Positions 15,978-32,097 of a stretch of 34,422 bases of DNA are shown piece after piece. Under the pieces are notes generated by a model. The model was not told where the DNA came from, searched no databases, and saw nothing but the letters and a program-made list of their open reading frames with translations. Positions within the stretch are counted from its first letter, which is position 1, and each line of letters begins with the position of its first letter. Source of the DNA: an uncultured Oscillospiraceae bacterium (GTDB lineage: Bacteria > Bacillota > Clostridia > Oscillospirales > Oscillospiraceae); contig CANPWM010000019.1 of assembly GCA_947584295.1 (NCBI GenBank), positions 1-34,422 of the forward strand. The letters run 5' to 3'. Both the position numbers and the translations under genes were made by a program.

Positions 15978-16118
15978 GCTTTTGGAAGGAATCGCACGGA
16001 TACACGGAGGAAACGAATTAAATTATACGATTGAACAGTGATTTGAGCATATTGGCTGAATAAGAAGAAATTCACAAAAGCAAGCGAAGAAATCATAGAA
16101 AGACAGGTGAATTTTCAA

Positions 16119-16805
16119 GTGAATATAAAGGAAATCTTTTACAAGACCCTGATTGCCGGGGATTCGTACAAAACCTTGCTGAAAGGCTTGGGCGTGACAG
16201 TACAGATTTCACTGCTTTCCGTGATACTGGGGACGCTTTTGGGAATGGTCATCTGTGCCATGCGAAGAAGCCGGTTTCGGGTGATTCGCACCGTTGCCGC
16301 AGGGTACATTGCCGTCATCAGGGGAAGCCCGGTATTGCTGCTTTTGATGCTGATGTATTATGTGGTGTTTGCCGGCAGCAAAGTGTCCGCAACGATAGTA
16401 GCCGTGGCGGCCTTTTCCCTTCACACGGGTGCCTATACGGCGGCTTGTTTTTATTCCGCTATCAACGCGACGGACGCCATGCAGGCTGAGGCGGCAAGGA
16501 CGCTGGGATTCTCCAAATGGCAGGCTTTTATCCTAATCACATTGCCACAGGCGGCAAAAATAGCAAAAGGAACCTATCAGTCTACAATCGTCACCCTGAT
16601 CCAGTGGACCAGTGTGGTGGGCTATGTTACCATTACCGATTTGACCAGGGTCATCAACAATATCGGCAGTCGCACGATGGAGCCTCTCTTTATGATCCTG
16701 GTGGGACTGTTGCTTTATCTTGGCATGGCCTATATCTGCTACGGTGCGTTTGCCTTGGCGGAAAGGCTGGCGATCTTGCGAAAGGAAAGGAGGAGAGGGG
16801 CATGA
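16119..16805 (+). CDS. Polar amino acid ABC transporter permease (HisM/GlnP-like)
   Basis: A 228-residue inner-membrane permease of the polar amino acid importer family. About five hydrophobic helices are visible, including VQISLLSVILGTLLGMVICA and PVLLLLMLMYYVVFAG. The cytoplasmic EAA loop that docks the ATPase is present as AEAARTLGFSKWQAFILITLPQAAK. The GTG at 16119 is chosen because AGGTGA lies eight bases before it; an in-frame GTG at 16107 falls inside that site. The stop overlaps the ATPase start as ATGA. Its helix-loop order closely matches the permease segment of the 1135-residue protein further on (22918-26325), so the two are paralogues. Confidence 0.92.
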   Translation: MNIKEIFYKTLIAGDSYKTLLKGLGVTVQISLLSVILGTLLGMVICAMRRSRFRVIRTVAAGYIAVIRGSPVLLLLMLMYYVVFAGSKVSATIVAVAAFSLHTGAYTAACFYSAINATDAMQAEAARTLGFSKWQAFILITLPQAAKIAKGTYQSTIVTLIQWTSVVGYVTITDLTRVINNIGSRTMEPLFMILVGLLLYLGMAYICYGAFALAERLAILRKERRRGA

Positions 16806-17902
16806 GCATGATCCGGGTGGAAAAGCTGTCCAAATCCTTCGGTTCTTTACAGGTACTGAAGGAGGTTGATCTGACGGTTGAGAAAGGGGAACGGATCGTT
16901 ATTATCGGCGGTTCTGGCTGTGGAAAAAGCGTATTCCTACGCTGCATGGATCTGCTGGAAACACCGGACGAGGGAACCGTATTTATCGGGGACAACGAAT
17001 TGACGTCGCCAAAAGCGGATCTGAACCGTATTCGGCGCAAGGTGGGCATGGTCTATCAGGGGTTCCATTTGTTTTCCAACATGAATGTGCTGGATAACAT
17101 TACGCTGGCACCGATAAAACTCCTTGGCCTGCCGCGGGCGGAGGCGGAGAAGAAAGCGGAAACGCTTTTGGAGATGGTAGGGCTTCTCAGTAAAAAATAT
17201 ATGATGCCCGACGTGTTGTCCGGGGGGCAGAAACAGAGAATCGCCATTGTACGGTGCCTAGCCATGGAGCCGGATATCATGCTTTTTGACGAACCCACAT
17301 CGGCGCTTGACCCCACTATGGTGGGAGAAGTGCTTGCAACCCTGCGGCTTCTGGCAAAGCAGGGAATGACGATGGTGATCGTTACCCATGAAATGGCCTT
17401 CGCAAGAGAGATTGCCACAAGGATACTCTATTTTGATGAACAGGGCATCTACGAAGAGGGGACGCCCCAGGAAATTTTTGACGCCCCGAAAAAGAAGAAG
17501 ACCAGGGATTTTATTCACAAGATGAAATATTTCTTCTGGCAGATTGATGACCGGAACTTCGATTTAATGCAACTTCAGGGCAATATCCGCAGCTTCGCCG
17601 GAAAGTACGGGATGGATGAAAAAAGGACAAACCGGCTCCAGCTCTGTACGGAGGAGCTTATCTATGAAATGCTGGAACATGGACAGCCTGACGTCGGTGT
17701 GGATATGCAGATACAAATTTCCTTTGATGAGCGTGACGGATGCGCGGTCATCGGACTTCGCAGCAGGGGCGCACAATACAATCCGTTTGAAGCGGATACA
17801 GAGGATGAAATCCACCTGGGCGTTACGATCTTGAAAAACACCGCAAAGCGGTTGGATTATTGGTTTGACGGTGTAAATAATGAGTTGGAAATCGAATTAT
17901 AG
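16802..17902 (+). CDS. ABC transporter ATPase with C-terminal degenerate RsbW-like domain
   Basis: A 366-residue ATPase for an amino-acid importer. The ABC part (residues 1 to about 240) has Walker A GGSGCGKS (36-43), signature LSGGQKQ (139-145), Walker B IMLFDEP (159-165) and the H-loop His196. Normal members end near residue 245. Here a further ~120 residues follow, which resemble the RsbW/SpoIIAB kinase fold: LQLCTEELIYEMLEHG corresponds to the N-box helix, GAQYNPFEADTED to the G1 region ([11 protein letters not shown] in the RsbW-like domain of 20073-22916), and LGVTILKNTAKRLDYWFDGVNNELEI to [26 protein letters not shown]. The catalytic Asn and the DxG aspartate are replaced (by Glu and Ser), so it probably binds a partner rather than phosphorylating it. 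Coupled to the permease by ATGA overlap. Confidence 0.88.
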   Translation: MSMIRVEKLSKSFGSLQVLKEVDLTVEKGERIVIIGGSGCGKSVFLRCMDLLETPDEGTVFIGDNELTSPKADLNRIRRKVGMVYQGFHLFSNMNVLDNITLAPIKLLGLPRAEAEKKAETLLEMVGLLSKKYMMPDVLSGGQKQRIAIVRCLAMEPDIMLFDEPTSALDPTMVGEVLATLRLLAKQGMTMVIVTHEMAFAREIATRILYFDEQGIYEEGTPQEIFDAPKKKKTRDFIHKMKYFFWQIDDRNFDLMQLQGNIRSFAGKYGMDEKRTNRLQLCTEELIYEMLEHGQPDVGVDMQIQISFDERDGCAVIGLRSRGAQYNPFEADTEDEIHLGVTILKNTAKRLDYWFDGVNNELEIEL

Positions 17903-17914
17903 GAGGAACACAAA

Positions 17915-18751
17915 ATGAAAAAAATTCGCGGACTTATGAGTGTCGCCCTGCTTTTGGTGATGATCTTCACCATAGCGGGATGCGGACTGGAAAATTCTCC
18001 GGGGGGGGGTGAAGACATTCTCTGCGGCATAATGGATTGGCAGGAGCCCTCGGATCTGGAAATATTTCCAAAGCCCGCACTGGGCGAGTGGAAGCAGTAC
18101 AACAATCTTACATCCATGGTTCTTGACCTGAATGCCGGCAATATAGAGTATATGCTTGTGCCGTCCTCGGTGGCGGGCTATTTGAAGGCGCAGGACGATT
18201 CGCTGACCATCGCTCCCGGCGGCGCAGGCGTCCCCACGGAGATACGGATGGCAGTCCGCTCGAAAGATGCGGAGCTTTTCGAGCTTTTGCAGCAGGGGAT
18301 TCAGACCCTCCGGGAGAGCGGGACCCTCGATACGCTTATTGAGACCTACATCACGAATATTTCTACTATTTCTACCGAGTCCCCCGGAAACGCGGGGCAA
18401 AACGACGGCGACACCTATGTGGTCGGCGTGACCGGAGATCTGCCGCCGCTGGATTATGTGGCCGCGGACGGGACGCCCGCGGGCTTTAATGTGGCGCTGA
18501 TGAACGCCATCGCCGAGGAGCAAAACGCTAACTTCACCTTTGTTCAGGTGGAGGCGGACGCGCGCCTTTCGGCGCTGAGCAGCGGGAGGATCGACGTGAT
18601 CTTCTGGTACGGCAACGTGCAGGGCTATGAATCGGAACGGGACGATATTCTGATCACGGATGACTACTATACCGACGGTATTTATTATGTGACGAAGTCC
18701 TTTGATATGGACAAGATCTTGGCAGCGATGAGAGAGATGTGGGATCAGTAA
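17915..18751 (+). CDS. Lipoprotein related to family 3 solute-binding proteins, lobes in swapped order
   Basis: A 278-residue lipoprotein: signal peptide with lipobox IAGC (Cys23), so it is anchored outside the cell membrane. Residues about 50-145 look like the second lobe and C-terminal helices of a bacterial type 3 solute-binding protein (MVLDLNAGNIEYMLVPSSVAGYL, then LLQQGIQTLRESGTLDTLIETY). Residues about 165-270 look like a first lobe (VVGVTGDLPPLDYVAADGTPAGFNVALMNAIAEEQ, then SSGRIDVIFWYGN). Normal proteins have lobe I first. It follows the ATPase by 12 bases with the site AGGAGGAA, so it is the likely binding protein of that importer. The lobe reading is mine; the domain borders are approximate. 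Confidence 0.8.
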   Translation: MKKIRGLMSVALLLVMIFTIAGCGLENSPGGGEDILCGIMDWQEPSDLEIFPKPALGEWKQYNNLTSMVLDLNAGNIEYMLVPSSVAGYLKAQDDSLTIAPGGAGVPTEIRMAVRSKDAELFELLQQGIQTLRESGTLDTLIETYITNISTISTESPGNAGQNDGDTYVVGVTGDLPPLDYVAADGTPAGFNVALMNAIAEEQNANFTFVQVEADARLSALSSGRIDVIFWYGNVQGYESERDDILITDDYYTDGIYYVTKSFDMDKILAAMREMWDQ

Positions 18752-18786
18752 ATCGGGCTCTAAACCGGGAGCTCTTATCTATAAAA

Positions 18787-18821
18787 TGGCCTCATCGAAG
18801 AAAAAGCCTTTGATGAGGCCA
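18787..18821. repeat. Intergenic stem-loop
   Basis: A perfect 10-bp stem (TGGCCTCATC at 18787-18796 with 18812-18821) and a 15-base loop lie between two lipoprotein genes. It has no T-run after it on the plus strand. It may act as a processing or stabilising element inside the operon message. Confidence 0.5.
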
Positions 18822-18878
18822 CAAAATTCAACCGGAAATTGGATACGAATGGCGGATCGAGACAGGAGGCGAGTAATA

Positions 18879-19592
18879 ATGAAGAAGCAATGTAGACTTT
18901 GGATGACTATGTTTCTGCTTATGATGCTTTTGGCTTCCTGTGGGCAGAAAACGAATACCGCGGCTGCTTCCCGGTGGCAAATGGCTATGAGCGACGCGGT
19001 ATTCGCCGAGGACGAGGAGATCCATCCGCTTGTTACCCTGACAGCTGAGGACAGCCGGGTTATCTGGGACGATGCCGGTGAAAAGGTTCTTCTCTTAACA
19101 TGGCATGATTATCCAAGCGCGTGCGAGTCCGGAACCTCCATCGGGGAATACGGCGATATTTGGGCGACTTCGCTGGGCGAAATGAGGCGTTGGTTTAAAG
19201 AGAACGGGGAAAAGATAACGGATTGGGAGCTTCGGTTTTCACAGCTTCTCGGCGTGCATGTGGATGAGGGGTACACCAGATTTACCGCTTTCTGGGTATC
19301 GCCGCGGGATGTTGTCCGTCCGGCTTTTGTCACGGATGTGACGGAACAAATGGTGAATGATTACAGCCTTGTCGCCGGAGAGTGGAAGGAATGGTTTGAC
19401 GCCAACATCCTGTTTTCCTATTTTGAAAGTGATTACCCCTGGACAAGACTGGGCTATACCTACGATTGGGGCGGGACGCAGGAATATGGACTGACGGAAT
19501 TTCTGGTGCGCGACCCGTCACAGACGGAGATCGCGTTTACCTTAACGACAGATGAGTTTGTAGAATATTTAAAGGCCCCTGAAGAAGATTAG
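18879..19592 (+). CDS. Lipoprotein of unknown function
   Basis: A 237-residue lipoprotein that I do not recognise. The signal peptide ends in the lipobox LASC (Cys21). The mature part has a conserved-looking core LLLTWHDYPSACESGTSI, many tryptophans (WATSLGEMRRWF, WELRFSQLLG, WVSPRDVVRPAF) and a C-terminal DWGGTQEYGLTEFLVRD. There are no obvious catalytic or repeat motifs. The ATG at 18879 follows AGGAGG at nine bases. Being secreted and lipid-anchored within a transporter/sensor cluster, it may be an extracytoplasmic accessory, but that is guesswork. Confidence 0.75.
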   Translation: MKKQCRLWMTMFLLMMLLASCGQKTNTAAASRWQMAMSDAVFAEDEEIHPLVTLTAEDSRVIWDDAGEKVLLLTWHDYPSACESGTSIGEYGDIWATSLGEMRRWFKENGEKITDWELRFSQLLGVHVDEGYTRFTAFWVSPRDVVRPAFVTDVTEQMVNDYSLVAGEWKEWFDANILFSYFESDYPWTRLGYTYDWGGTQEYGLTEFLVRDPSQTEIAFTLTTDEFVEYLKAPEED

Positions 19593-19609
19593 AATGAGAA
19601 TAATACCAT

Positions 19610-19747
19610 ATTGAAAAATACAAAGACGGTGAAATAGACGCCAAACGGTGCCGCTATGACGCCCATACGGATCAGGGCTTTATGTTGCCCTGCGACTGGA
19701 TGGATTCCGCGATTAAAGATCAACAAAAATTATATTATGGAGGGTAA
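19610..19747 (+). pseudogene. Possible coding fragment without start codon
   Basis: Between two genes, an open frame of 45 codons ending TAA at 19745-19747 reads IEKYKDGEIDAKRCRYDAH and then TDQGFMLPCDWMDSAIKD. It looks like real protein (balanced composition, charged helix followed by a Trp/Cys segment) but has no plausible start codon, and an in-frame stop lies shortly before it. I do not recognise a family. It may be the tail of a gene removed by a deletion. It may also be chance. Confidence 0.3.
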
Positions 19748-19750
19748 ACC

Positions 19751-20047
19751 ATGAACATTCAAAAGACAGTAAACGGAACAACTTTGACCGTTAAATTGGA
19801 GGGGAGACTGGATACCACGACTTCCCCGAAGCTGGAGGAAGAGCTTAGAGGCAGTGTCGGCGGCATGACTTGCCTTGTGATGGATTTTGAGAAGCTGGAA
19901 TACATCTCGTCCGCCGGTCTGCGCGTGCTTCTGGCCATGCAGAAGATCATGAACAGGCAGGGTGAAATGCGGATTAAAAATGTGAGCGAAACGGTTATGG
20001 AAGTCTTTGAGATCACGGGGTTTTCAGATATCTTAACGATTGAGTGA
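19751..20047 (+). CDS. STAS-domain anti-sigma-factor-antagonist-like protein
   Basis: A 98-residue single STAS domain, the SpoIIAA/RsbV fold. These small proteins bind an RsbW-type kinase, are switched off by phosphorylation on a conserved serine, and are switched on by a PP2C phosphatase. The phosphorylation-site loop is present as LEYISSAGLRVLL, with Ser53/Ser54 (Ser54 aligns best with the phospho-serine). It is preceded by GGAGGG at a good distance, and its stop lies 25 bases before the start of the phosphatase/kinase gene. No sigma factor gene is found in the window. Its natural partners here are the RsbW-like domains on the following protein and on the two importer ATPases. Confidence 0.93.
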   Translation: MNIQKTVNGTTLTVKLEGRLDTTTSPKLEEELRGSVGGMTCLVMDFEKLEYISSAGLRVLLAMQKIMNRQGEMRIKNVSETVMEVFEITGFSDILTIE

Positions 20048-20072
20048 ACTCCCTTTGGAGAGGAGGCGTTCT

Positions 20073-22916
20073 ATGGTATACATACAGCTTGGGCTGGCGG
20101 CCCTGTGCCCCGCCATCGTGTCCGCCGCGTTCTATTGGAGCAATAAAAGAGCGGGCTTTTCAAAGCTGTCCGGGAAAACAAAGCAGGCCGTGTATGGCTT
20201 AGCGTTTGGGCTGCTTGCCATTTTGAGTACGGAGTTCGGCTCCCAGGTGGATGGGGCCGTGATCAGCGCCAGGGACGCCGCTCCTTTATGCGCGGGACTT
20301 GTTTTTGGCGCGCCGGCGGGCCTTTTAGCGGGCCTTATCGGCGGCGCGTGGAGATTTTTCGCGGCGATAGGGGGCGAAGGGGTATACACTGGCTTGGGCG
20401 CCAGCTTCACCACCCTCCTCGCGGGACTGCTGGGCGCGGCGCTGCGGAAATGGATGTTTGACAACAAGCGCCCCTACTGGTACTACGGCCTGGCGGCGGG
20501 GTCCGTGGTAGAGGTTGTCAACATGCTCCTGGTGTTCCTCATCAACATGGAGGATGTGCACACGGCCTTTGAGCTGGTGGAGAAGGCCACTCTCCCCATG
20601 GTCATTTTGAATGCCGGAGCGGTGACGCTGGCCATGCTGGTGGTATCCGCCATGGCAGGGGAACTCAGAAAAGTCCGGGGAAAAAACAGAAATCAGCTGG
20701 CACAGACATTTTCCCGGTGGCTGCTCCTCTGCGTCGTGCTGGCGTTTTTGGTGTCCAGCCTGTTTGTCTATGTGCTGCAGACGAGGCTTTCGGCCAATGA
20801 CGCGGAGAAAATGCTCTCCCTCTATATCGAGGACGTCCGGGCGGATATCAACGACGCCTCGGATGACAACCTTTTGAAGCTGACAAGGAAGATACGGGAC
20901 GCTCTCGACGAGACCGGGGATTATGGGGAACCGGCCCTTTTTTCCCTCCTTGATGCCAACAACGTATCGGAGATCAATATCATTGACGAAAACGGTATCA
21001 TTATCGCCAGCACCACAGAGGAGTATGTGGGCTTTGACATGGCCGGCGGCGAGCAGTCGGGCGAATTTATGGCGCTGCTCCACGGGGAAAAGGAGCTTGT
21101 GCAGCGTTATCAGCCTATTTCCCGTAACGAGGGCGTTTCCATGAAATACGCGGGAGCCGTCTTACAAAGCGGCGGCTTTGTGCAGGTGGGATACGATTCA
21201 GGACGGTTTCAGGCGGACATCGACGGACAGGTGGTGGGACTCACCAGGAACCGCCACGTGGGCGAGGACGGATTCATGCTCATTGCCAACGAGGAGCTGC
21301 GCCTCGTGAGCGACCCGGGCGGACACGAGGGGATGTCCCTTGACGTGGCGGGGATCCTTCTCACGCCGGAGGAGGACACCTATGACGCGTCCTCCGAAAA
21401 ATTCGGGAGAGAGTGGCAGATGCTCTCCCAGTCCGTCTTTGGGCAGAGCTGTTACGTGATGTACGGCGTCACGGAGGGGTATTACATCATCGGGGCCCTG
21501 CCGAAGTCCGAGGTGGTTTTTGACCGCAATATGCAATTATACACCACGGTGTTTATTGAGATCATGGTATTCGCGGCGCTTTTCGCGCTGATATACCTCC
21601 TGGTCAAAAAGCTGGTGGTGGAGAATATCCAGAAGATCAACGGCTCTCTGGAGGAGATCACAGGCGGAAACCTGAATGTGACTGTGGACGTGCGGAGCAA
21701 CGAGGAATTTATGTCTCTGTCCGACGACATCAACTCCACGGTACACACCCTGAAGGGATATATCGCGGAGGCCGCCTCCAGAATAGACAGGGAGCTGGAA
21801 TTCGCCAAGACGATCCAGGTCTCCACCCTCCCCTGCGTCTTCCCGCCGTACCCGGACAGAACGGATTTTGACATCCACGCGACTATGGATACAGCAAAAG
21901 AGGTGGGAGGAGATTTTTACGACTTCTATCTGCTGGACGAAAACCGTCTCGCGTTTTTGATCGCGGATGTGTCCGGCAAGGGAATTTCCGCGGCGATGTT
22001 TATGATGAAAGCAAAGACGCTGATCAAAAGCTTTGCCGACAAGGAGAGCGACGTATCCAGGATCCTGACGAGAGCCAACGCGGATCTGTGCGAGAATAAC
22101 GAGGCGGAAATGTTCGTGACCTGCTGGATGGGCATTTTAGATCTTAAGACATACACGGTATATTTTACAAACGCGGGACATAATCCGCCGCTTGTGAGAC
22201 ACAAGGACGGAAAGTTTGAATATTTTAAGACCCGTCCCGGTTTTGTCCTGGCGGGCATGGAGGGCGTGAAGTACAAAAGCGGCGAATTAAAGCTCATGCC
22301 GGGAGACGAGATCTTCCTTTATACGGACGGCGTGACCGAGGCAACGGACGCCCACAACGAGCTTTACGGCGAGGCAAGGCTGAAGGCCGTCCTGGACAGG
22401 CTGGAGGGCGCCAGCGCAAAAGAGATTTGCCTGGGCGTGAAACAGGATGTGGACGCTTTTGTGGGAGAAACGCCCCAGTTCGACGATATGACGATGCTCT
22501 GCCTTCGTCTTACGCCAAAGCACAGCATTACGGTGGATCCGCGGGAGGATACCATGCGGGCCGTGGTGTCCTTTGTGGAGGAGACGCTGGCGCTGGCTGA
22601 AGTTCCCGTGAAAATTGCCATGAAGATGAACATCGCGGCAGATGAGATCTATTCCAATATCCAGCGTTACAGCGGCGCGACAAATGCACAAATAGAGTGC
22701 GCGGTCAGTGAAAACAGGCTCACTCTGGTATTTGAGGACAACGGGAGTCCTTACAATCCGCTTGATAAGGAAGACCCCGACACGACCCTTTCGGCGGATG
22801 AGAGGGAGATCGGCGGACTTGGCATTTTTATGGTGAAGAAGACAATGGACGATGTGTCCTACGAGTATTCGGAGGGCATGAACCGTTTGACGCTGAAAAA
22901 GAGCTGGGAGGCATAA
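20073..22916 (+). CDS. Membrane sensor with PP2C (SpoIIE-type) phosphatase and RsbW-like kinase domains
   Basis: A 947-residue protein combining sensing and both arms of a partner switch. Residues 1 to about 200 form several membrane helices resembling the 5TM-LYT type ([18 protein letters not shown]). A helix at about 214-236, an extracellular Cache-like region (about 240-488), a helix at 489-512 and a HAMP segment follow. The PP2C domain (about 597-812) keeps its metal ligands: GGDFYD (Asp614), ADVSGKG (Asp632), YTDG (Asp752) and FDDMT (Asp804/805). The last 125 residues are an RsbW-like ATPase with intact N-box ADEIYSN (Asn862), DNG (Asp889) and GGLGIF. The ATG at 20073 follows GGAGAGGAGG. 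The STAS protein just upstream is the expected substrate of both activities. Confidence 0.92.
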
Positions 22917-22917
22917 A

Positions 22918-25900
22918 ATGGCGATACGATCGAAGAAAAAATCCTGTCTTACCCTGGCCTTGCCGATCCTTCTTATAAGCCTGCTTCTTGGGGGGTGTGG
23001 GAAAAACGGCGGGAAGAGCGCGCCGATAACCGATATCCGTCAGCTGGACGGACAGGCCATTGGCGTGATGACCGGCTCCAGCTTTGATGTCCATACAGAC
23101 AATCTGATCGAGGACGCGGATAAGCAGTTTTATGACCGGGTCCCGGATCTGGCTCTGGCGGTGGAGCAGGGGAAAATCGCCGGTTTTCTGATGGACGAGC
23201 CCATCGCCCGCCTGCTGTGCATGGAAAACCAGGCGGTGACTTACCTTCCCGATGTGCTGGTGGAGGAGAGCTATGCCGCCGCTTTTTCAAAAACAGAGCG
23301 CGGCGCGGCGCTGAGGGATGAGTATAACGAATTTTTGGCGCAGATCAAGGCGGACGGCACACTGGAGGAGATCGACGGGATCTGGATAGGCACGGATGAG
23401 AGCAAAAAGGTGGTGGAGGACTGGACGTCCTTCCCGGCAGAGAACGGCGTCATCCGGATGGCGGTAAAAACCGACGTCGCGCCCTTCAGCTATATCAAGG
23501 ACAACCAAATCGTCGGGTATGATATTGATATCATGGTTCGTTTCTGCAAGGCCCGGGGCTACGGGCTGGAGGTGACCAGCGCGGAGATCGCGTCTATTTT
23601 CGCGGGCCTTGCCACCGGTACATACGACGTCTCTGCCACCGGCATGACGGTGACGGAGGAACGGTCAGAGAGTGTTAATTTCGCCGTGCCGGATTACACC
23701 GGCGGCGTGGTGGCGGTGGTGGCAAACCATGGGCAATTTGAGGCGCGCTTTCAGACACTCCAGGATTTTGCCGGTACAACAGTGGGAGCGATGACGGGTA
23801 CCATTCATAACGAGCTTTTGAACGATGTCGTCAGCGGCTGTGAATATCAGTATTACGATGATTTTTCCGCTCTGCTTCTGGCGTTGCAGTCGGGTACGCT
23901 GGACGCCGCGGCGGCCGATATGCCCATTGCCCAGCTGGCGGTGGCCAGGCAGCCGGATCTTACGATATTTCCTGAAACGGTGGCTCCCGACACCTACGGC
24001 TTGGGATTGCAAAAGGACAGCCCGCTGACAGATAAGGTCAGCGCTGTCATTGAAAGATATACGCAGGACGGCACACTGGACGCCCTGCGGGAAAAATGGC
24101 TGGGCGCCGACGAAAGCATTAAAACCATTGATGTGGGCGAATATGACGCGCCCAACGGCACCCTGCGGTATGCCCATGACTCTACGCTGGAGCCTATGAG
24201 TTATGTAGGCGGAAACGGCCAATCCCTTGGATATGAGGTGGAACTGGTCTCGCTTATTGCCAAAGAACTGGGGATGAAGCTGGAAATCACCCAAAGCACC
24301 TTCAATTCGCTGATCCAGATGCTCAGCACCGGGCGGGCGGATATTGTATCCGGCGCCATCAGCATCACCGATGAGCGGAAGGAACGCATTGATTTTCCCG
24401 CCACACATTATGTCGGCGGTTCGGTACTCATTGTCAGAGGCGAAGACATGGGCGTGTCCGTAGAGACGGAAGAAACGGGCTTTTGGGCCGGGCTGAGAAA
24501 CAGCTTTTATAAGAATTTCATTCAGGAAAACCGGTGGCAAATGATCCTCTCAGGCCTTGCCGTCACGTTTGTCATCTCCATCTTTTCGGCTTTGTTCGGC
24601 ACTGTGCTGGGCTTTTGCCTGTGCCTGGTGCGCCGCAGCCGCAACAGAATCGCCTCCGGGATCACGGCGGCCTTTATCCGGCTGATCCAGGGGATCCCTG
24701 TCCTGGTACTGTTGATGGTGTTGTTCTACGTGGTATTTGCCGGCGCGCGACTTAACGGGATCGTCGTGGCCATTATCGGCTTCTCTATCAACTTTGGCGT
24801 CTATGTCTCCGAAATGATCCGCACTGGCATCAACGCCGTGGACGCCGGCCAGTGGGAGGCGGCGTCCGCCATGGGCTTTGGACGGGTCAAGACGTTTACA
24901 AAGATCATCGCTCCCCAGGCGGCGCGGCATATTCTGCCGGTATACAAGGGCGAATTTATTTCCATGGTAAAAATGACGTCTGTGGTGGGGTATATCGCGG
25001 TGGAGGATCTGACCAAGGCCACCGACCTTATCCGCAGCCGCACCTTTGAGGCGTTTTTCCCGCTGATCCTGACCGCGGTTTTGTATTTCCTGCTGGCATG
25101 GTGCCTGACCCTCCTGCTGGGACTGGTGGAGAGGAAGATCGACCCCCGCCGCCGGCGCCGGGAACCGAAGGGAATCGACAGGAAAATTTCCCTGTCGGAA
25201 ATTTCGGAGGAACCGACGACCGGGCAAAACGGGGAACCGGTGATCACCATTGCCCATCTAAAGAAGGTATTTCCCAACGTAACGCCCTTGAAGGATGTCA
25301 ATGCCGTCATAAATCAAGGGGATGTTATCTCCATCATCGGCCCTTCCGGCACGGGTAAAAGCACCCTTCTGCGCTGTATCAATCGGTTGGAAACGCCGAC
25401 GGAAGGACAGATCGAGGTGTTTGGCCAGCCAGTGACCGGCGTAAAGCCGGCGCAGCTTGGGGCCGTGCGCCGCCGCATGGGAATGGTATTCCAGAGCTTT
25501 AACCTGTTTGCCCATCTGACGGTGATTGAAAATATCATGCTGGGGCCGGTAGAGCTGCTGGGCTGTACCCGGCAGCAGGCCTATGAACGGGGAATGCGAT
25601 TGCTCTCCAGCGTGGGCTTGGCGGAAAAGGAACTCAACTATCCGGATGAGCTTTCCGGCGGTCAAAAACAGCGCGTCGCCATTGCCCGTACGCTGGGGAT
25701 GCGGCCGGAGATCGTACTCTTTGACGAGCCAACCAGCGCGCTGGATCCTACCATGGTAGGAGAAGTGCTGGCAGTCATCCGCACTCTCGCCGAGCAGGGG
25801 CTGACCATGCTCATTGTCACCCACGAGATGAAGTTTGCCAGGGATGTATCCACGCGGGTATTTTACATGGACGAGGGCGTTGTTTACGAGGAAGGGACGC

Positions 25901-26325
25901 CGGAGCAGGTGTTCGATGCGCCCAGGACCGACCGTTGCCGGGCGTTTGTCCACCGCCTGAAAACCCTTCATCTGGAGATCGCCTCCAGGGAGTTTGACTT
26001 TATCGGCGCGGCGGCGGACATCGACCGCTTTGCCCGCAAGCAGGTGCTGAGCGCGCGTCAGTCCCTCAAGTACCAGCAGATTTTTGAGGAGCTGTGCGTG
26101 ACGAGTATCCTGCCGACCTTGCCGGATGACGGGTGCGATCTGAGCTTCGACGCCTTTTGCGGGGAGGACGGAGGCGAGTGCGAGGCCGTCATCCGCTGGA
26201 AGGGGGAAGCGTTCGATCCGCTGACGCAGGGAGATGAGCTGAGCGCCGCTTTGACCGTCAGCCGGACCAAGAGCAGCGGCCATACCTATGCCGACGGGGT
26301 CAACACGGTGACCATTGTCTTTTAA
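22918..26325 (+). CDS. Single-chain amino-acid ABC importer: binding-protein lobes, permease, ATPase and RsbW-like tail
   Basis: A 1135-residue lipoprotein (lipobox LGGC, Cys27) carrying an entire importer. Residues about 35-165 look like lobe II of a type 3 binding protein; about 180-400 form a full binding domain ([29 protein letters not shown]); about 410-510 look like lobe I of another. The permease spans about 539-737, with the EAA loop [23 protein letters not shown]. The ATPase begins near 775, with Walker [10 protein letters not shown] (808-816), LSGGQKQ (912-918), IVLFDEP (932-938) and H-loop His969. Residues about 1020-1135 repeat the degenerate RsbW-like tail of the 16802 ATPase ([28 protein letters not shown]). 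The ATG follows GGGAGGCATAAA directly after the phosphatase/kinase stop. A lipidated N-terminus outside, with the ATPase inside, fits one continuous chain. Confidence 0.93.
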
Positions 26326-26348
26326 GACTGTTTTTGAGGAGAAAAAGA

Positions 26349-28031
26349 ATGGACATCAGGACAGTTAAGAAAAAACAGCCATGCTTTCTGGCTGTATTGC
26401 TTGCGGTCGCGCTGATTTTGGGCGGGTGCAACGCAAAGGATAAGGCCAAAGCGAACGACATCATCATTTTATATACGAATGACGTGCATTGCGCCGTGGA
26501 CGAGGACATCGGCTACGCCGGACTTGCGGCATACAGGCAGTGGTGTGAGAAAAGTACCCCTTATGTCACGCTGGTAGACTGCGGAGATGCCCTGCAGGGG
26601 GACGCCATCGGAACGGTTTCCAAGGGGGAATATCCGGCGGAGCTTATGAACCGTGCGGGATATGACTTCGCGGTACTTGGAAACCATGAGTTTGACTATG
26701 GGATGGAGCAGCTGAACCGGCTTATGGAGATAAGCGGTGCCCAGTATCTTGGCTGTAATATCCGCTATACAGGGAAGGATGACGCGGCGTTTCTCTCCCG
26801 GCTTTTGCCGTACAAGATCGTATCCTATGGCAAGGTGAAGGTCGGCTTTATTGGGGTGTCAACGCCGGAGAGCATCGTAAAATCCGTTCCGGCATACTTT
26901 TGCGATGAGAACGGGAATTATGTATACGATTTCTATGGGGAAAGCGGGGAGGAATTATACAGACGCGTACAGGAAAATGTGGACGCCTGTGTGAAGGATG
27001 GCGCGGATTATGTCGTGGTTCTTGCCCATCTTGGAACGGATGCGTCGTCCTCGCCGTTTACATCCCGTGAGCTGATCGAAAATACAAGGGGGATCCACGC
27101 CGTGCTGGACGGCCATTCCCACAGCGAGATCCCCTGTGATGTGGTGAAAAACGCCGATGGGAAGAATGTGCTTTTGTCCTCCACGGGTACGGGGCTTTGC
27201 AATATTGGCCGCCTCACCATCACCGTGAATGGAAATATCCAGACAGGGCTGATTGGGGCATACCCGGAGACGGACAGCGAAATGGCAGACTGCATAGAAA
27301 GCGTGGAAGAAAAGCTTGGAGCCGAGATGACGAAAACCATCGGCGTATCGGAGGTGGCGCTTACAACCGTTTCCGATTCCGGCATGCGTCTCATACGGAA
27401 CAGGGAGACCAATCTGGGGGATTTCTGCGCGGACGCCTACCGGGCTGTATCGGGTGCTGATATCGCGCTTGTGAACGGCGGCGGTATTCGGGCAGATATT
27501 TCCGCGGGTGAGATCACCTATGGGGATATCCTGAGCGTGCATCCCTACGGAAATTCCCTATGCGTGGCAAAGGCCACAGGGCAGGAAATACTGGACGCCC
27601 TGGAGATGGCCAGCCGCTTCTGCCTGTCCCGTGCGGACGACGGGGAAAACGCGGTGGGTGAAAACGGAGGCTTTCTGCAGGTGTCGGGGCTTAAATATAC
27701 CATCGACACTTCTGTTGGATCCACGGTGAAGACGGATGAGCAGGGAAATTTCCTCTCCTGTGGGGATGGCCGGAGAGTAAAGGATGTCATGGTTCTTGAG
27801 AAGGATGGCAGCTACACGGCGCTTATACCGGATAGGAACTATACGGTAGCGTCCCACAATTACCTGATCAAGCAAGGCGGGGACGGGCTGAATATGTTCA
27901 TGGACAACGAGCTGACAATTGACGAGGGCATGACGGATTACGAGATCCTTATGACGTATCTCACGGATGTACTCAACGGAACAGTGGGGGACGCGTACGC
28001 TCTGCCGCAGGGACGGATTGAAATCGGATAA
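26349..28031 (+). CDS. Lipoprotein 5'-nucleotidase / metallophosphoesterase (UshA-like)
   Basis: A 560-residue cell-surface enzyme that would strip phosphate from nucleotides, freeing nucleosides for uptake. The signal peptide ends in the lipobox LGGC (Cys27). The metallophosphatase half has its metal motifs: LYTNDVH, VDCGDALQGD, GNHEFDYG, VVLAHLG and GHSHSE. The C-terminal 5'-nucleotidase domain has RETNLGDFCADAYR, ALVNGGGIRADI and the substrate-stacking region SHNYLIKQGGDG. The usual TNDxHG has Cys-Ala in place of Gly after the His. The ATG at 26349 follows GAGGAGA, and the gene starts 23 bases after the giant importer. Its place suggests it feeds substrate or signals to this import cluster. 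Confidence 0.92.
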   Translation: MDIRTVKKKQPCFLAVLLAVALILGGCNAKDKAKANDIIILYTNDVHCAVDEDIGYAGLAAYRQWCEKSTPYVTLVDCGDALQGDAIGTVSKGEYPAELMNRAGYDFAVLGNHEFDYGMEQLNRLMEISGAQYLGCNIRYTGKDDAAFLSRLLPYKIVSYGKVKVGFIGVSTPESIVKSVPAYFCDENGNYVYDFYGESGEELYRRVQENVDACVKDGADYVVVLAHLGTDASSSPFTSRELIENTRGIHAVLDGHSHSEIPCDVVKNADGKNVLLSSTGTGLCNIGRLTITVNGNIQTGLIGAYPETDSEMADCIESVEEKLGAEMTKTIGVSEVALTTVSDSGMRLIRNRETNLGDFCADAYRAVSGADIALVNGGGIRADISAGEITYGDILSVHPYGNSLCVAKATGQEILDALEMASRFCLSRADDGENAVGENGGFLQVSGLKYTIDTSVGSTVKTDEQGNFLSCGDGRRVKDVMVLEKDGSYTALIPDRNYTVASHNYLIKQGGDGLNMFMDNELTIDEGMTDYEILMTYLTDVLNGTVGDAYALPQGRIEIG

Positions 28032-28052: not shown

Positions 28053-29492
28053 ATGATCACGTTTATCATAGCTCTGCTTGTTTTGCTGGTGGGATATCAA
28101 CTCTACGGGCGCCTGGTCGAAAAAATCGTCGCTCCCGGCGACGATCCCACGCCGGCGATGGCCCACCCGGATGGGGTGGACTTTACGCCCATGAAGAAGT
28201 GGCGGGTGTTTTTGATCCAGCTTCTGAATATAGCCGGAACGGGGCCGATTTTCGGGCCGCTGATGGGAGCTGTCTTTGGGCCGGTGGTGTTTTTGTGGAT
28301 CGTGCTGGGATCCATCCTCGGCGGAGCCGTACATGATTATCTGTCCGGGATGGCATCCGTAAGAAATGACGGCGCATCCATTTCGGAAATCGTCGGAAAA
28401 TACCTGGGTACCGCAGCGAAACAGGTGATGCGTATTTTTTCCGTCGTCCTGCTTGTGTGTGTAGGGGCGGTATTTACCACAAGCCCGGCCGGACTCCTGG
28501 CGAGGCTTACGCCGGATTTTATGGATACCACATTCTGGATCGTCGTCATCATGGCCTATTATGTGCTGGCGACGCTCCTTCCCATTGACAAGGTGATTGG
28601 AAAGCTCTATCCCGTGTTCGGCGTGGTGCTAATGTTTATGGCGGTCGGGATCGCCGGCGGCCTGATTTTCGGAGGCTATACGCTGCCGGAGCTCACCTCC
28701 GAGACCCTTGCCAATCTGCATCCGGAAGGGAAGCCAATCTGGGCCTATATGTTTGTCACGGTAGCCTGCGGCGCGGTATCGGGCTTTCATTCCACGCAGT
28801 CGCCCATGATGGCAAGGTGCATAGAGAGCGAGAAGCAGGGACGCACGATTTTTTACGGCGCAATGCTTGCGGAGGCCGTGATCGCCCTGGTATGGGCGGC
28901 GGCCGGCCTCGGGTTTTACGGCAATACAAGCAGCTTGTCGGGGGCTCTGGCATCGCTGGGTCAGTCGGGAGTGGTTTATGATATTTCGGTGGGCGTACTC
29001 GGTAAGGTCGGCGGGGCGCTGGCTGTCATCGGCGTGGTCGTCTGCCCGATCTCTACGGGGGACACGGCGTTTCGGAGCGCACGGCTCACGCTGGCTGACT
29101 GGTTGAAGCTGGATCAGTCAAGCCTTGGGAAAAGGCTCATTTTAGCGCTTCCCCTGATAGGAACAGCCGCTGTTTTGACGCAAATCGACTTTGACATCAT
29201 CTGGCGGTATTTTTCCTGGTCAAATCAGACGCTGGCTATGATCGTGCTGTGGGCGATGGCTGTCTATCTGGTTCAAAACGCGAAAAAAGAGTGGTATTCC
29301 CTGGTTGCGGCGGCCCCGGCGGCGTTTATGAGCGCGGTCTCCGTCACTTACATACTCATGGCGGACGAGGGCTTCAGGCTTTCCACAAAAATAGCCTATC
29401 CGGCGGGCATTGCGGCGGCAGCTCTCCTGCTTGTTGTATTTCTGCTGTATATGATCCGCTCGGGACGCACAAAAAAGCATGAGATCTCATAA
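28053..29492 (+). CDS. CstA-family transporter (carbon starvation / pyruvate or peptide uptake)
   Basis: A 479-residue multi-pass membrane protein of the CstA family, short form. The hallmark N-terminal region is clear: NIAGTGPIFGPLMGAVFGP, GGAVHDYLSGMASVRNDGASISEIVGKYLG, then STQSPMMARCIESE and CPISTGDTAFRSARL. About twelve helices are visible. CstA and its relative BtsT in enteric bacteria import pyruvate or peptides; BtsT is controlled by the LytTR-type system BtsSR. Here a LytTR/AgrC-type operon lies convergent, its last stop overlapping this stop by six bases, so there is no room for a terminator between them. The ATG follows GGAAGGAG. Substrate is not predictable. Confidence 0.93.
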   Translation: MITFIIALLVLLVGYQLYGRLVEKIVAPGDDPTPAMAHPDGVDFTPMKKWRVFLIQLLNIAGTGPIFGPLMGAVFGPVVFLWIVLGSILGGAVHDYLSGMASVRNDGASISEIVGKYLGTAAKQVMRIFSVVLLVCVGAVFTTSPAGLLARLTPDFMDTTFWIVVIMAYYVLATLLPIDKVIGKLYPVFGVVLMFMAVGIAGGLIFGGYTLPELTSETLANLHPEGKPIWAYMFVTVACGAVSGFHSTQSPMMARCIESEKQGRTIFYGAMLAEAVIALVWAAAGLGFYGNTSSLSGALASLGQSGVVYDISVGVLGKVGGALAVIGVVVCPISTGDTAFRSARLTLADWLKLDQSSLGKRLILALPLIGTAAVLTQIDFDIIWRYFSWSNQTLAMIVLWAMAVYLVQNAKKEWYSLVAAAPAAFMSAVSVTYILMADEGFRLSTKIAYPAGIAAAALLLVVFLLYMIRSGRTKKHEIS

Positions 29493-30773
29493 GGCGATCA
29501 CAAGCTTGAACCAGCCGTCCTCCGCGCCGAACGAGTAAAAAGCGTTGTGCTTTTCGCAGAAAGCCATAATGGAGCGTGTGCCGATCCCGTGGCCGGGTTT
29601 ATGTGATTGCGGGAGTCCGTTTCTTCCAAAGGAGATACGTCCACGGTAGGGGTTTTCAATCTCAAACATGAACTGCGGTTTATGGATGCACCGAATGACG
29701 ATTTTCCGCTGGTTTTCCGGGAGCCGTTCACAGGCGTTTATGGCATTTTCCAGAGCGTTGGAAAAGCAGATCGCAAGCTCGGCGGAATCGACGGGCAGTG
29801 TTTCCGGAAGGGAAAGCCTCTGCTCCACCGCAATGCCGGATCGCTCCGCGCGGCCCAAATAGGCGGCGAGGGTGGCGTTTAAGATGGGGTCATCGCAATA
29901 GCGGGCGGGTGCGGCGGTGTCGTTTCGCGTGGATGCTTCTTTTATGTAAGCAAGGATCGCCTCGGCATTTCCCTCCCGCGCAAACCCGGCGATTGTAGAC
30001 AGCATCTGCCGGATGTCCCGCCTTGCGTTTCTCGCCTCCTCCGCTTTTCTCTCGGTGTCCTTTGCCTGTTTTCTGATGTTCTCTATTTGCAGCCTTAAAA
30101 GATCACGATCTTGCTCCTCCACCCGGTATCGGTACTGGAGCCACAGGTATTGGAAGATGGCGTAGTAGATGATGAGGAGGACTATGCCCGTCAGGGCAAA
30201 CAGAATGGAAAAGGACGTATTCTGCGTATAATGTGCCGGGTAGAGCGCCAGCACCATGGTGAGTATGAAAAAAGAGCAGGGAATCAGAGCGAGGATACCC
30301 CAGCCCCCGGTGACCGTGTCCGCGATATTTAAGAAAACAGTTCGTAGGAAGAAAACTTCCAGTAAAATTACCATCAGGTAGACGGAAAGAAGCAGCAGAG
30401 GATTTGTCACGGAGTTGCCGCCGAACAGCGTATTCAGCTGCGTCACACCGACGATCAGGTAAAGGGACAGGAGAAGCTCCGACAGACAGCAGAAAATATG
30501 CCTTGAAAGGGACTCATCCGCAATCAGAAAGGTTATGATGACTCCGGGTATGGAGATCGTGAGTATGGCGCCGCGCAGAAAGGGCAGAAAGCCCAAAAAT
30601 CGTATGCAGAGGACGGAAAAAGCGATTGAATAGACCGCGTATCCGAGGACAATAAGCAGATTTCTCCTTTTGTTTTCCCTTAGCCTGCTGACGGAAACGA
30701 CCATACCCAGCGTACCGAAGATGGAAACGAGTATCCTGTATGTCTGGTATGCGGTATCGTTATCAAAAATCAT
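29487..30773 (-). CDS. AgrC-type GHKL sensor kinase lacking the phospho-acceptor histidine
   Basis: A 428-residue membrane protein with six or seven N-terminal helices (to about residue 215), a coiled coil, and a GHKL ATPase domain of the HPK10/AgrC type. The N-box is intact (CFSNALENAINAC) and the lid motif is good (GHGIGTRSI, Gly394-Ile402). Where relatives have R-H-D-x-x-x-H, this protein reads R-R-D-I-R-Q: Arg252 replaces the phospho-acceptor His and Gln256 the second His. It therefore cannot autophosphorylate in the usual way. I chose the ATG at 30773 after GAAGGG, giving a length like its neighbour; a longer frame to 30872 would run into the upstream gene. It is the last gene of the leftward operon. 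Confidence 0.9.
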   Translation of the reverse strand: MIFDNDTAYQTYRILVSIFGTLGMVVSVSRLRENKRRNLLIVLGYAVYSIAFSVLCIRFLGFLPFLRGAILTISIPGVIITFLIADESLSRHIFCCLSELLLSLYLIVGVTQLNTLFGGNSVTNPLLLLSVYLMVILLEVFFLRTVFLNIADTVTGGWGILALIPCSFFILTMVLALYPAHYTQNTSFSILFALTGIVLLIIYYAIFQYLWLQYRYRVEEQDRDLLRLQIENIRKQAKDTERKAEEARNARRDIRQMLSTIAGFAREGNAEAILAYIKEASTRNDTAAPARYCDDPILNATLAAYLGRAERSGIAVEQRLSLPETLPVDSAELAICFSNALENAINACERLPENQRKIVIRCIHKPQFMFEIENPYRGRISFGRNGLPQSHKPGHGIGTRSIMAFCEKHNAFYSFGAEDGWFKLVIAL

Positions 30774-30801
30774 GCCCTTCTTGACCTTCTCCCTTCCCGC
30801 T

Positions 30802-32097
30802 TTATAAGGCCACCATGATGCGGAACCATTTATTTTCAGCCGTAAACGAATAAACAGCGTCATGCCGCTCACAGAAGGAAGCTATGGAGCGGAAACTGCT
30901 GTTTAAACCTCCGTCCGGCGGCTTTGGAAGCCCCTTTTTGTCCAGCGGTATTTTGCCCTGACAAGGATAAGTGACCTCAAACATCAGCTTCGGACTGTGG
31001 ATGCACCGAACGCTCATCTTCCGTTCCCCTTCAGGAAGCTTCATGCAGGCATGGATGGCATTTTCCAGCATATTGGCAAAGCAGACAGAAAGCTCGGAAG
31101 AGTCCACCGGAAGGACATCCGGAATGGAAAGCGAGGTCTCGAGCGCGATGCCCGCCTCCCTTGCGGACGTAAGATAGTCGGAGAGCGTGGCGTCCAGAAT
31201 GGGATCGTTGCAATACGGATGCGGCTTTGGAACATCCTCAGACAGTTCCGCGGTATTTTCCACAAAATCGAGGATCGCCTGCGTGTCGCCGCTTTCCGCC
31301 AGGGCGGCGACTGTGGAGAGGATGTGGCGCAGGTCGTGCCGAAGGATCTTCGTTTGCTTTTCAAGGGCCTCCAAATCGGCGTTTTCCCTCCGTATGTTTT
31401 CCAACTGAAGCTCCAGAATTTCCTTGTTCTGCTCTGACCGCAGTCTGCCGTTCTGCATGGACAGGTAGCGTCCGATGGAAAAGTAGACGGCTATAATGAC
31501 GGCCCCCAGCAGATAAAGCGTGACGAAGCTTAATGGCCGCTTCGCATAATGTTCCGGGTAAAGGGCCGCTGTCACGGAAAGGATGATGAACGCGCAGGGG
31601 ATCAGGGAAAGGACGCCCCAGCCCTTTTTGATCATGCTGACAGAATCAAGCCATATATGCCTCACAAAGTAAAAATCAAACAGCGCGGCCAGCAGATAGG
31701 AAAGCAGGCGCAGCAGGATGTCCGACAGCTCGTTTCCATGTAAGGCGGTATTTATCAGGGTAACTGTGGCGGCAATGTAAAGGGAGGCAAGAATATGTGT
31801 CGCCCCGGTAAAGACAAGATTTGCAAACGGCTCGTCAGAGATATTGCGCAAAAGAAGAACCGCCGGGCATGATATGGTGAGGATAAAAACCCGCAGGAAA
31901 TGCTCGTAACCAAAATAGTAAATGATCAAAAAAGTGGAGAGAACGACAAAAACGGCATAGCCCAAAATAACCGCAACGCACACGGTTTTCTTCTGGATCA
32001 TTTTAAAGCTGGTTGTGGATACCATCATGGCGATCGTACCCGCAAAGATAATCAGGACTTTCAGGACTAAAAAAGTAAGGTTAGCCTCAAAAAGCAC
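30802..32097 (-). CDS. AgrC-type GHKL sensor kinase with histidine but degenerate ATP lid
   Basis: A 431-residue paralogue of the next gene (29487-30773), with the same order of membrane helices, coiled coil and GHKL domain. The phospho-acceptor motif is intact: ILRHDLRHIL with His254 and His258. The N-box is kept (CFANMLENAIHAC). But the lid motif, GHGIGTRSI in the partner, reads G-L-N-S-S-F-R-S-I here (residues 397-405): two of the three glycines are Asn399 and Ser401. ATP turnover by this chain alone is therefore doubtful. The GTG start at 32097 follows GGAGGAAA and overlaps the end of the regulator gene by 11 bases. Confidence 0.9.
   Translation of the reverse strand: MLFEANLTFLVLKVLIIFAGTIAMMVSTTSFKMIQKKTVCVAVILGYAVFVVLSTFLIIYYFGYEHFLRVFILTISCPAVLLLRNISDEPFANLVFTGATHILASLYIAATVTLINTALHGNELSDILLRLLSYLLAALFDFYFVRHIWLDSVSMIKKGWGVLSLIPCAFIILSVTAALYPEHYAKRPLSFVTLYLLGAVIIAVYFSIGRYLSMQNGRLRSEQNKEILELQLENIRRENADLEALEKQTKILRHDLRHILSTVAALAESGDTQAILDFVENTAELSEDVPKPHPYCNDPILDATLSDYLTSAREAGIALETSLSIPDVLPVDSSELSVCFANMLENAIHACMKLPEGERKMSVRCIHSPKLMFEVTYPCQGKIPLDKKGLPKPPDGGLNSSFRSIASFCERHDAVYSFTAENKWFRIMVAL

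Follow-up and report, generated by a model that had tools for sequence, protein, structure and literature searches.

A candidate partner-switching module with degenerate RsbW-like tails on two ABC importer ATPases in an Oscillospiraceae-like genome

The locus described here lies in a 34,422-nucleotide stretch of an Oscillospiraceae-like genome (uncultured Oscillospiraceae bacterium, assembly GCA_947584295.1, contig CANPWM010000019.1), called the window throughout, whose features were assigned from open frames, Pfam matches and gene neighbours. Between positions 16107 and 28031, eight genes on the + strand follow one another with overlaps or with gaps of less than 40 bases; the STAS gene alone is preceded by a longer gap, of about 160 bases. 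Their products are, in order, a permease, an ATP-binding cassette (ABC) ATPase whose tail is RsbW-like, a solute-binding protein, one protein without an assigned family, a STAS protein, a PP2C phosphatase joined to a kinase domain, a 1135-residue fusion protein and a 5'-nucleotidase-like protein, and a CstA-family gene comes next. An initial annotation had read this array as a partner switch connected to amino-acid importers, and its gene calls held up: the named genes are open + strand frames at the positions given for them, and the STAS protein, the membrane PP2C with its kinase domain and two ABC ATPases with RsbW-like tails are all present.

The amino-acid-type ABC permease (16107..16805; BPD_transp_1, Pfam E 1.1e-15) overlaps by 4 bases the start of ABC ATPase 1 (16802..17902), which joins a HisP/GlnQ-type nucleotide-binding domain (NBD; 16802-17521; ABC_tran 5e-33) to the degenerate RsbW-like tail 1 (17522..17899). 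Relatives of this ATPase occur in named genomes, and a matching permease adjoins the tailed ATPase at the related loci found by the pattern scan described below. Downstream lie a family 3 solute-binding protein (17915..18751; SBP_bac_3, E 7e-19) and an open frame (18786..19592) that looks lipoprotein-like by eye and has no convincing family match. The fusion protein (22918..26325) unites solute-binding repeats, a permease, ABC ATPase 2 and RsbW-like tail 2 (25966..26322), with matches to SBP_bac_3, BPD_transp_1 and ABC_tran, and relatives carry the same binding-protein/permease/ATPase/tail fusion. The starts of ATPase 1 and of the PP2C protein are inferred, the former frame being open from 16517 and the latter from 20040 (ATG at 20073 or TTG at 20040), and scans for promoters (21 promoter-like sites, 11.3 expected) and terminators (15 terminator-like sites, 14.7 expected) were uninformative.

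The single-domain STAS protein (19751..20047; STAS E 3e-17, ant_ant_sig 4.9e-22) carries a phosphorylatable serine, Ser54, in the motif YISSAGLR; Ser54, Asp21 and Tyr51, which correspond to Ser56, Asp23 and Tyr53 of RsbV, were invariant in 10/10 sequences, and the relatives of the protein in the PDB are RsbV and SpoIIAA. The membrane PP2C protein (20073..22916) begins with a 5TMR-LYT module (Pfam 5TM-5TMR_LYT, 5e-24) and continues through a middle part without assigned family to a SpoIIE-type PP2C domain (21936-22511; 9e-53) and an RsbW-like kinase domain (22542-22901; HATPase_c_2, 1.9e-16). The three core parts of a partner switch are present: a SpoIIE-type PP2C, an intact GHKL serine kinase and a STAS protein with a phosphorylatable serine. 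The Cache-like sensor first proposed for the phosphatase was not recovered, as Pfam gave none there and listed just Diacid_rec at E 0.09; the sensor instead consists of the LytS-type 5TM module and the part without a family. Phosphatases at related loci L028, L031 and L140 also start with 5TM-5TMR_LYT, others (L037, L046 and contig C24 of the window's own genome) have dCache/PDC sensors, and that of L141 has a QueT-like membrane domain below cut-off; the signal probably differs between modules.

The kinship of the tails with the RsbW/HATPase fold, on which the proposal had been made to depend beforehand, was recovered by sequence profile. Tail 1 matched Pfam HATPase_c_2 at E 3.4e-5 (24.3 bits, under the curated cut-off of 27.4), and an alignment of 24 tails matched one of eight kinases with an hhalign probability of 97.3 (E 2.4e-11), against a probability of 0.2 (E 0.32) for the same comparison with a STAS alignment as negative control. 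Tail 2 is tied to the family through tail 1, to which it is related by sequence (E 7.9e-5), and through the family profile, which matches it at 5.6e-33 and includes tail 2 itself. AlphaFold (AF2) models of the ATPases with their tails reached a mean pLDDT (predicted local distance difference test score) of 89.3 for ATPase 1 and 90.4 for ATPase 2, and the predicted order of strands and helices in the tails is b-a-a-b-b-a-b-b, with one extra short helix in tail 2; we take this to be the order of RsbW and other GHKL domains. A search of PDB sequences with the tail profile returned no chain at E up to 10, and no relative of ATPase 1 turned up when viral contigs were scanned.

The residues kept and lost in the tails were compared in a joint alignment of ABC tails (50), MATE domains (25), SDF domains (5) and kinase-type domains that were PP2C-linked (13), STAS-linked (3) or stand-alone (17); the sets contain related sequences, so the counts are of sequences and not of events. 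All 50 ABC tails have the N-box Glu, 47 of them lack the N-box Asn (kept in 3/50), and the G1 Asp is absent from every one; in tail 1, the Glu is retained (ATPase residue 285) and the Asn and G1 Asp positions are replaced. SDF domains follow the same pattern (Glu 5/5, Asn 0/5, G1 Asp 0/5), and the MATE domains are mixed, with the Glu in 25/25, the Asn kept in 14 and absent in 11, and the G1 Asp kept in 19 and absent in 6. By comparison, the window kinase and all 13 PP2C-linked and three STAS-linked kinases retain the N-box Glu/Asn, the G1 Asp/Gly and GGLG, and 15/17 of the stand-alone short proteins scored as kinases have both Asn and Asp, the other two being ABC tails of L056 whose NBD is cut off by the frame or contig end. 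With the N-box Asn in 3/50 and the G1 Asp in 0/50, the ABC tails do not look like active kinases of the RsbW type. According to the excerpted text of the structural papers, SpoIIAB uses Asn50 to chelate Mg and Glu46 as its catalytic base (PMC10345196), and Glu49 of RsbW directly contacts the phosphorylated Ser56 of RsbV (PMC7340262). Read against these equivalents, the ABC and SDF domains, with the Glu kept and the Asn and Asp lost, retain the STAS-facing residue and have lost the ATP-holding ones. The ABC tails thus look like docking pseudokinases, and the idea that a dephosphorylated STAS protein docks on the tails is strengthened by the retention of the Glu together with the loss of ATP/Mg residues in the ABC and SDF sets. 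A role of the tails as nucleotide sensors was considered and rejected for the ABC and SDF types because their ATP/Mg residues are lost, a rejection that does not extend to the MATE type.

The gene set recurs, though patchily, in other genomes and phyla, a second point on which the idea had been made to depend beforehand. The nearest named record found, in a search that may omit records of the window's own genome, is an uncultured Oscillospiraceae metagenome-assembled genome (MAG) of the same genus group (G005) with an ATPase 98% identical. A pattern scan for ATPase 1 across 84,980 species genomes gave 26 loci, of which 23 (L027-L049) have a tailed ATPase and come from Candidatus Formimonas warabiya and from MAGs whose titles name Bacillota, Spirochaetota and Bacteroidota groups. 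Genes for the PP2C, kinase, STAS protein, permease, tailed ATPase and binding protein are consecutive at four Bacteroidota loci (L037, L038, L040 and L044). A Treponema MAG (L046) has a permease, tailed ATPase, binding protein, STAS protein, MATE transporter with an RsbW-like domain, PP2C, nucleotidase and kinase; a Sphaerochaeta MAG (L031) combines both ABC-tail types with a STAS protein, a PP2C-kinase and an SDF symporter bearing an N-terminal RsbW-like domain. Contig C24 of the window's own genome holds a second such set, with a giant ABC-tail fusion, STAS proteins and a PP2C-kinase. The tail profile, which also catches true kinases, matched in 35/198 genomes of the sampled Bacteroidota order and in 52/245 of the window's order.

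The theme is not confined to amino-acid importers, as first proposed: a domain of this kind is also present in MATE and SDF transporters. A C-terminal HATPase_c_2 domain was matched by Pfam in MATE proteins of L046 (1e-9), L057 (8e-9), L067 (5e-7), L060 (1.5e-11) and L141 (7e-14), and in that of L014 below cut-off (3e-5). SDF symporters adjoining STAS genes have an N-terminal domain of about 125 residues, which Pfam saw in one of four scanned (E 0.08); its profile matches the tails at E 1.1e-10 and the kinases at 4.8e-9, and the ABC-tail model picks up one member at 1.2e-8. A tail-bearing transporter was found in 70 of 76 loci examined, which had been chosen for tails, have short flanks in some cases and supplied part of the sequences for the search models. 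STAS, PP2C and kinase-type domains were present in 22, 17 and 14 of the 47 ABC-tail loci, in 14, 13 and 13 of the 25 MATE-tail loci and in four, three and three of the four SDF-tail loci, respectively, and two transporter types surround shared STAS genes in 6/70 loci (L030, L031, L046, L141, L144 and L148). No STAS domain fused to a tail-bearing transporter was seen in the loci examined, where the six frames that combine STAS and RsbW-like domains all fit the kinase model and lack a transporter core. Fusions of STAS to an APH (phosphotransferase) domain also lie near MATE proteins with RsbW-like tails (L060:3760-6129, L067:9812-11404, L153:4866-6482 and L165:10452-12038); Pfam identified two such MATE proteins in L060 and one in L067, the middle parts of the fusions in L153 and L165 falling outside the scan, and the STAS-APH-type proteins of L067, L153 and L165 end in a kinase-type RsbW domain.

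The link between tails and STAS genes was then compared across 112 HisP/GlnQ-type NBDs from 49 different genomes (51 handles less two duplicates), which were divided by an adjacent tail match into 57 tailed and 55 plain ones; the genomes had been selected for tails and not for STAS. A STAS gene lay within 10 kb of 23/57 tailed and 1/55 plain NBDs (Fisher P 1.7e-7) and within 5 kb of 16/57 and 1/55, respectively. Outside the Bacteroidota set (a grouping by record title plus the genomes of the sampled Bacteroidota order), the 10-kb figures were 18/36 tailed vs 1/55 plain; within it, 5/21 tailed NBDs were near STAS and there are no plain ones for comparison. STAS matches occur somewhere in all 51 handles (19/19 and 32/32), and in two of them (G060 and G069, both MAGs that may be incomplete) the operon STAS is the sole one found. 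For MATE-type proteins, 12 of 18 were within 10 kb of STAS; these had been picked by frame length and, where possible, by domain, with the MATE core checked in 16 and a 580-residue protein beside STAS (G068, C21) excluded. A quick tree of the 112 NBDs, whose root is not known and in which some plain members form long branches, placed all the tailed ones to the same side of a branch (SH-aLRT, the Shimodaira-Hasegawa-like approximate likelihood ratio test, 99) with no plain NBD among them, and implied one change for the tail, with no loss, and 20 for STAS proximity. Retention of the tail across this whole group is a better sign of function than the P value.

In agreement with the initial annotation, no linked sigma factor was found among the 19 window proteins chosen from its open frames for the Pfam scan. 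The genome has 30 Sigma70_r2 matches, and among the 27 of these 30 that were listed none falls on contig C19 or C24. On contig C55, a SpoIIA-like set brings together STAS (11393), kinase (10942) and sigma (10646) genes, and the genome therefore seems to keep a sigma switch apart from the transporter modules. The linkage to a sigma gene that marks the Rsb and SpoIIA systems is thus missing here, and an unlinked sigma factor is still conceivable.

From the gene content, the homology of the tails, their lost and retained residues, the conservation and the clustering, we infer, with a probability of roughly 0.6, a partner-switching module whose output is transport and not transcription; phosphorylation, docking of the STAS protein on the tails and an effect on transport are what this proposal adds to the observations. 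The kinase domain of the 20073 protein would phosphorylate Ser54 of the STAS protein, and the PP2C half, gated by the membrane sensor, would take the phosphate off. Dephosphorylated STAS protein would then dock on the degenerate RsbW-like tails of both ABC ATPases and alter how the ATPase dimer pairs and how fast import runs, and the phosphorylated form would be let go. In relatives, MATE and SDF transporters may receive the same STAS output by way of the RsbW-like domains that they carry. We lean weakly towards activation as the direction of control because MlaB-MlaF and SiaC-SiaD work so. A broader generalization, for which we would give even odds, is a general class of post-translational control in which one phospho-STAS protein serves as a shared bus, loaded or unloaded by an external sensor, into which transporters as unrelated as ABC importers, MATE exporters and SDF symporters plug via RsbW-derived pseudokinase domains, so that uptake and export are set jointly without transcription.

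Several observations weigh against such a module. Tail 2 has no Pfam match, and Foldseek and VIA-align searches with the whole ATPase models matched NBD chains, which left the tails unprobed. Many MATE domains keep the Asn and the G1 Asp (14/25 and 19/25), so the tails are not equally dead. The distribution is patchy, tail 1 being matched (E 0.001 or better) in 10/60 relatives and 5/33 of the same genus, in some via MATE proteins. The 34/57 tailed genes (16/21 in Bacteroidota) without STAS within 10 kb on the contig speak against strict linkage; some of their contigs are short and others not. Because the tailed NBDs form one group on the tree, the cases behind the P value of 1.7e-7 are not independent; in evolutionary terms the STAS comparison sets one group against the rest, and the value overstates independence. 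A test by independent contrasts of whether tail and STAS linkage go together has one independent pair and cannot support an association.

Some of these observations fit other explanations, two of which we judge unlikely to the same degree. The tails might be nucleotide-binding or fold-stabilizing accessory domains, functionally unrelated to the nearby STAS and PP2C proteins, which would control an unlinked target. This would account for the 34 tailed NBDs with no STAS nearby, and other ABC importers among the structure matches, such as MetN and MalK, do have unrelated C-terminal domains; the loss of ATP/Mg residues in the ABC and SDF domains nevertheless speaks against nucleotide sensing, tailed NBDs are enriched near STAS, and three unrelated transporter families have both the domain and the STAS neighbour in common. 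Equally improbable, in our view, is that the tails dimerize with a true RsbW-like kinase, the transporter replacing the sigma factor as client and the STAS protein freeing the transporter by removing the kinase. RsbW is described as dimerizing via beta1 and alpha1 (PMC7340262, excerpted text), both elements are present in the predicted tail folds, and kinase-type domains occur in 14/47 ABC-tail and 13/25 MATE-tail loci. Such mixed dimers would not require the STAS-facing N-box Glu, which is kept in all 80 tail domains, and with ABC tails STAS is commoner than a kinase-type domain (22 vs 14 of 47, under score thresholds that differ).

Ordinary sigma control, in which a distant sigma factor, governed by the STAS, PP2C and kinase, regulates these transporters' genes, with the tails as passengers undergoing decay, seems to us more doubtful still. 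The 30 Sigma70_r2 matches and the SpoIIA-like set on C55 would supply such a factor, but the C55 sigma gene has STAS and kinase neighbours of its own, and in G060 and G069, incomplete as these MAGs may be, no STAS match was found besides that of the operon. Decay, moreover, would not give a tailed group that spans Bacillota, Bacteroidota and Spirochaetota titles with no plain NBD within it. Docking of the STAS protein on the transporter tails is the reading we prefer.

The genes around these modules offer further observations. The 5'-nucleotidase-like phosphoesterase (26334..28031, + strand) is a recurring neighbour, present in 7/47 ABC-tail loci including the window and near the modules of L046, L140, L141, L142 and L146, and might point to a nucleotide or phosphate signal outside the cell. 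The CstA-family transporter gene downstream (28053..29492, + strand; CstA E 3.6e-55), whose membership in the module is not established, is convergent with two tandem genes on the - strand (29487-32097) for proteins with a C-terminal HATPase_c_5 GHKL domain, and a recombinase zinc beta ribbon protein near the contig end (33256-34143) possibly marks a mobile-element boundary. In Bacteroidota, an outer-membrane beta-barrel (OMP_b-brl_4; L037:11929-15171) lies downstream of the tailed ABC operon; genes of the same size follow the operon in L039, L041 and L047, the domain scan having covered L037. Proteins with an N-terminal STAS domain and a C-terminal TCAD9/APH-like part are likewise encoded downstream of this operon (L041:16714-18954 and L047:15161-17281). 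The second giant ABC-tail gene, on C24 of the window's own genome, is flanked by genes whose products end in a STAS domain and have an N-terminal part that matches LCM (carboxyl methyltransferase) weakly and below threshold (L177:5400-6635 and L068:2789-4099).

If the proposed module is real, partner switching would control membrane transport directly, via a recognizable plug-in domain found in three phyla, and in gut and environmental bacteria the sigma-factor switch appears to have been re-plumbed, with degenerate kinase copies on importers and exporters as docking sites, so that an outside signal could control transport directly. The module would further be a clear example of a former kinase that serves for docking and whose retained and lost residues can be read off the sequence, and it would supply a rule for predicting regulated transporters, namely a search for RsbW domains that have degenerated. 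How the STAS regulator of an ABC transporter can itself be controlled, a question left open by the MlaFB paper in the text excerpted from it (PMC7367683), would have one answer here: by a kinase and a PP2C.

The initial annotation knew of no described system of this kind, to which it must be added that partner switches without a sigma output (SiaD, HsbD and BgrR; PMC8457831) and a STAS-ABC pair are known. The RsbU/RsbW/RsbV and SpoIIE/SpoIIAB/SpoIIAA systems are alike in having a PP2C, a GHKL-type serine kinase with intact motifs and a STAS protein with the same serine motif; they differ from the window, which has no linked sigma factor seen and whose apparent clients are transporters with a degenerate kinase copy. 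In SiaABCD, HptB-HsbA-HsbD and BgrSTUWV, as far as the excerpted text describes them, the phosphorylation state of a STAS-like protein, whose binding partner is an effector other than a sigma factor, depends on a phosphatase and a kinase, as proposed here, but that effector is a diguanylate cyclase without an RsbW-like docking domain (PMC8457831); the window phosphatase matches the SiaA model below cut-off. In MlaB-MlaF, a STAS protein sits on an ABC ATPase, and binding is weakened when the STAS Thr is replaced by a phosphomimetic residue. There, however, MlaB binds the NBD, the C-terminal extension of MlaF measures about 25 residues and is not RsbW-like, the transporter is of a lipid and not an amino-acid type, and the portions of the paper at hand name no kinase or phosphatase (PMC7367683). 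The window STAS protein scored 24.3 of 90 bits against the mlaB model, below cut-off. In those same portions, the MlaFB authors noted no further STAS-ABC pair sharing one PDB entry and left the control of the STAS protein open (PMC7367683). Among the matches listed from the open-licence literature (titles and abstract starts), we found no description of RsbW-like domains fused to transporters, which may be described elsewhere. SLC26/SulP transporters also use a STAS domain in transport (PMC8256260, excerpted text), with the difference that theirs is built into the transporter, whereas in the window the kinase-like partner is built in and the STAS protein is separate. What appears new is the use of a fused, degenerate RsbW domain for docking, and the recurrence of that domain in three transporter families.

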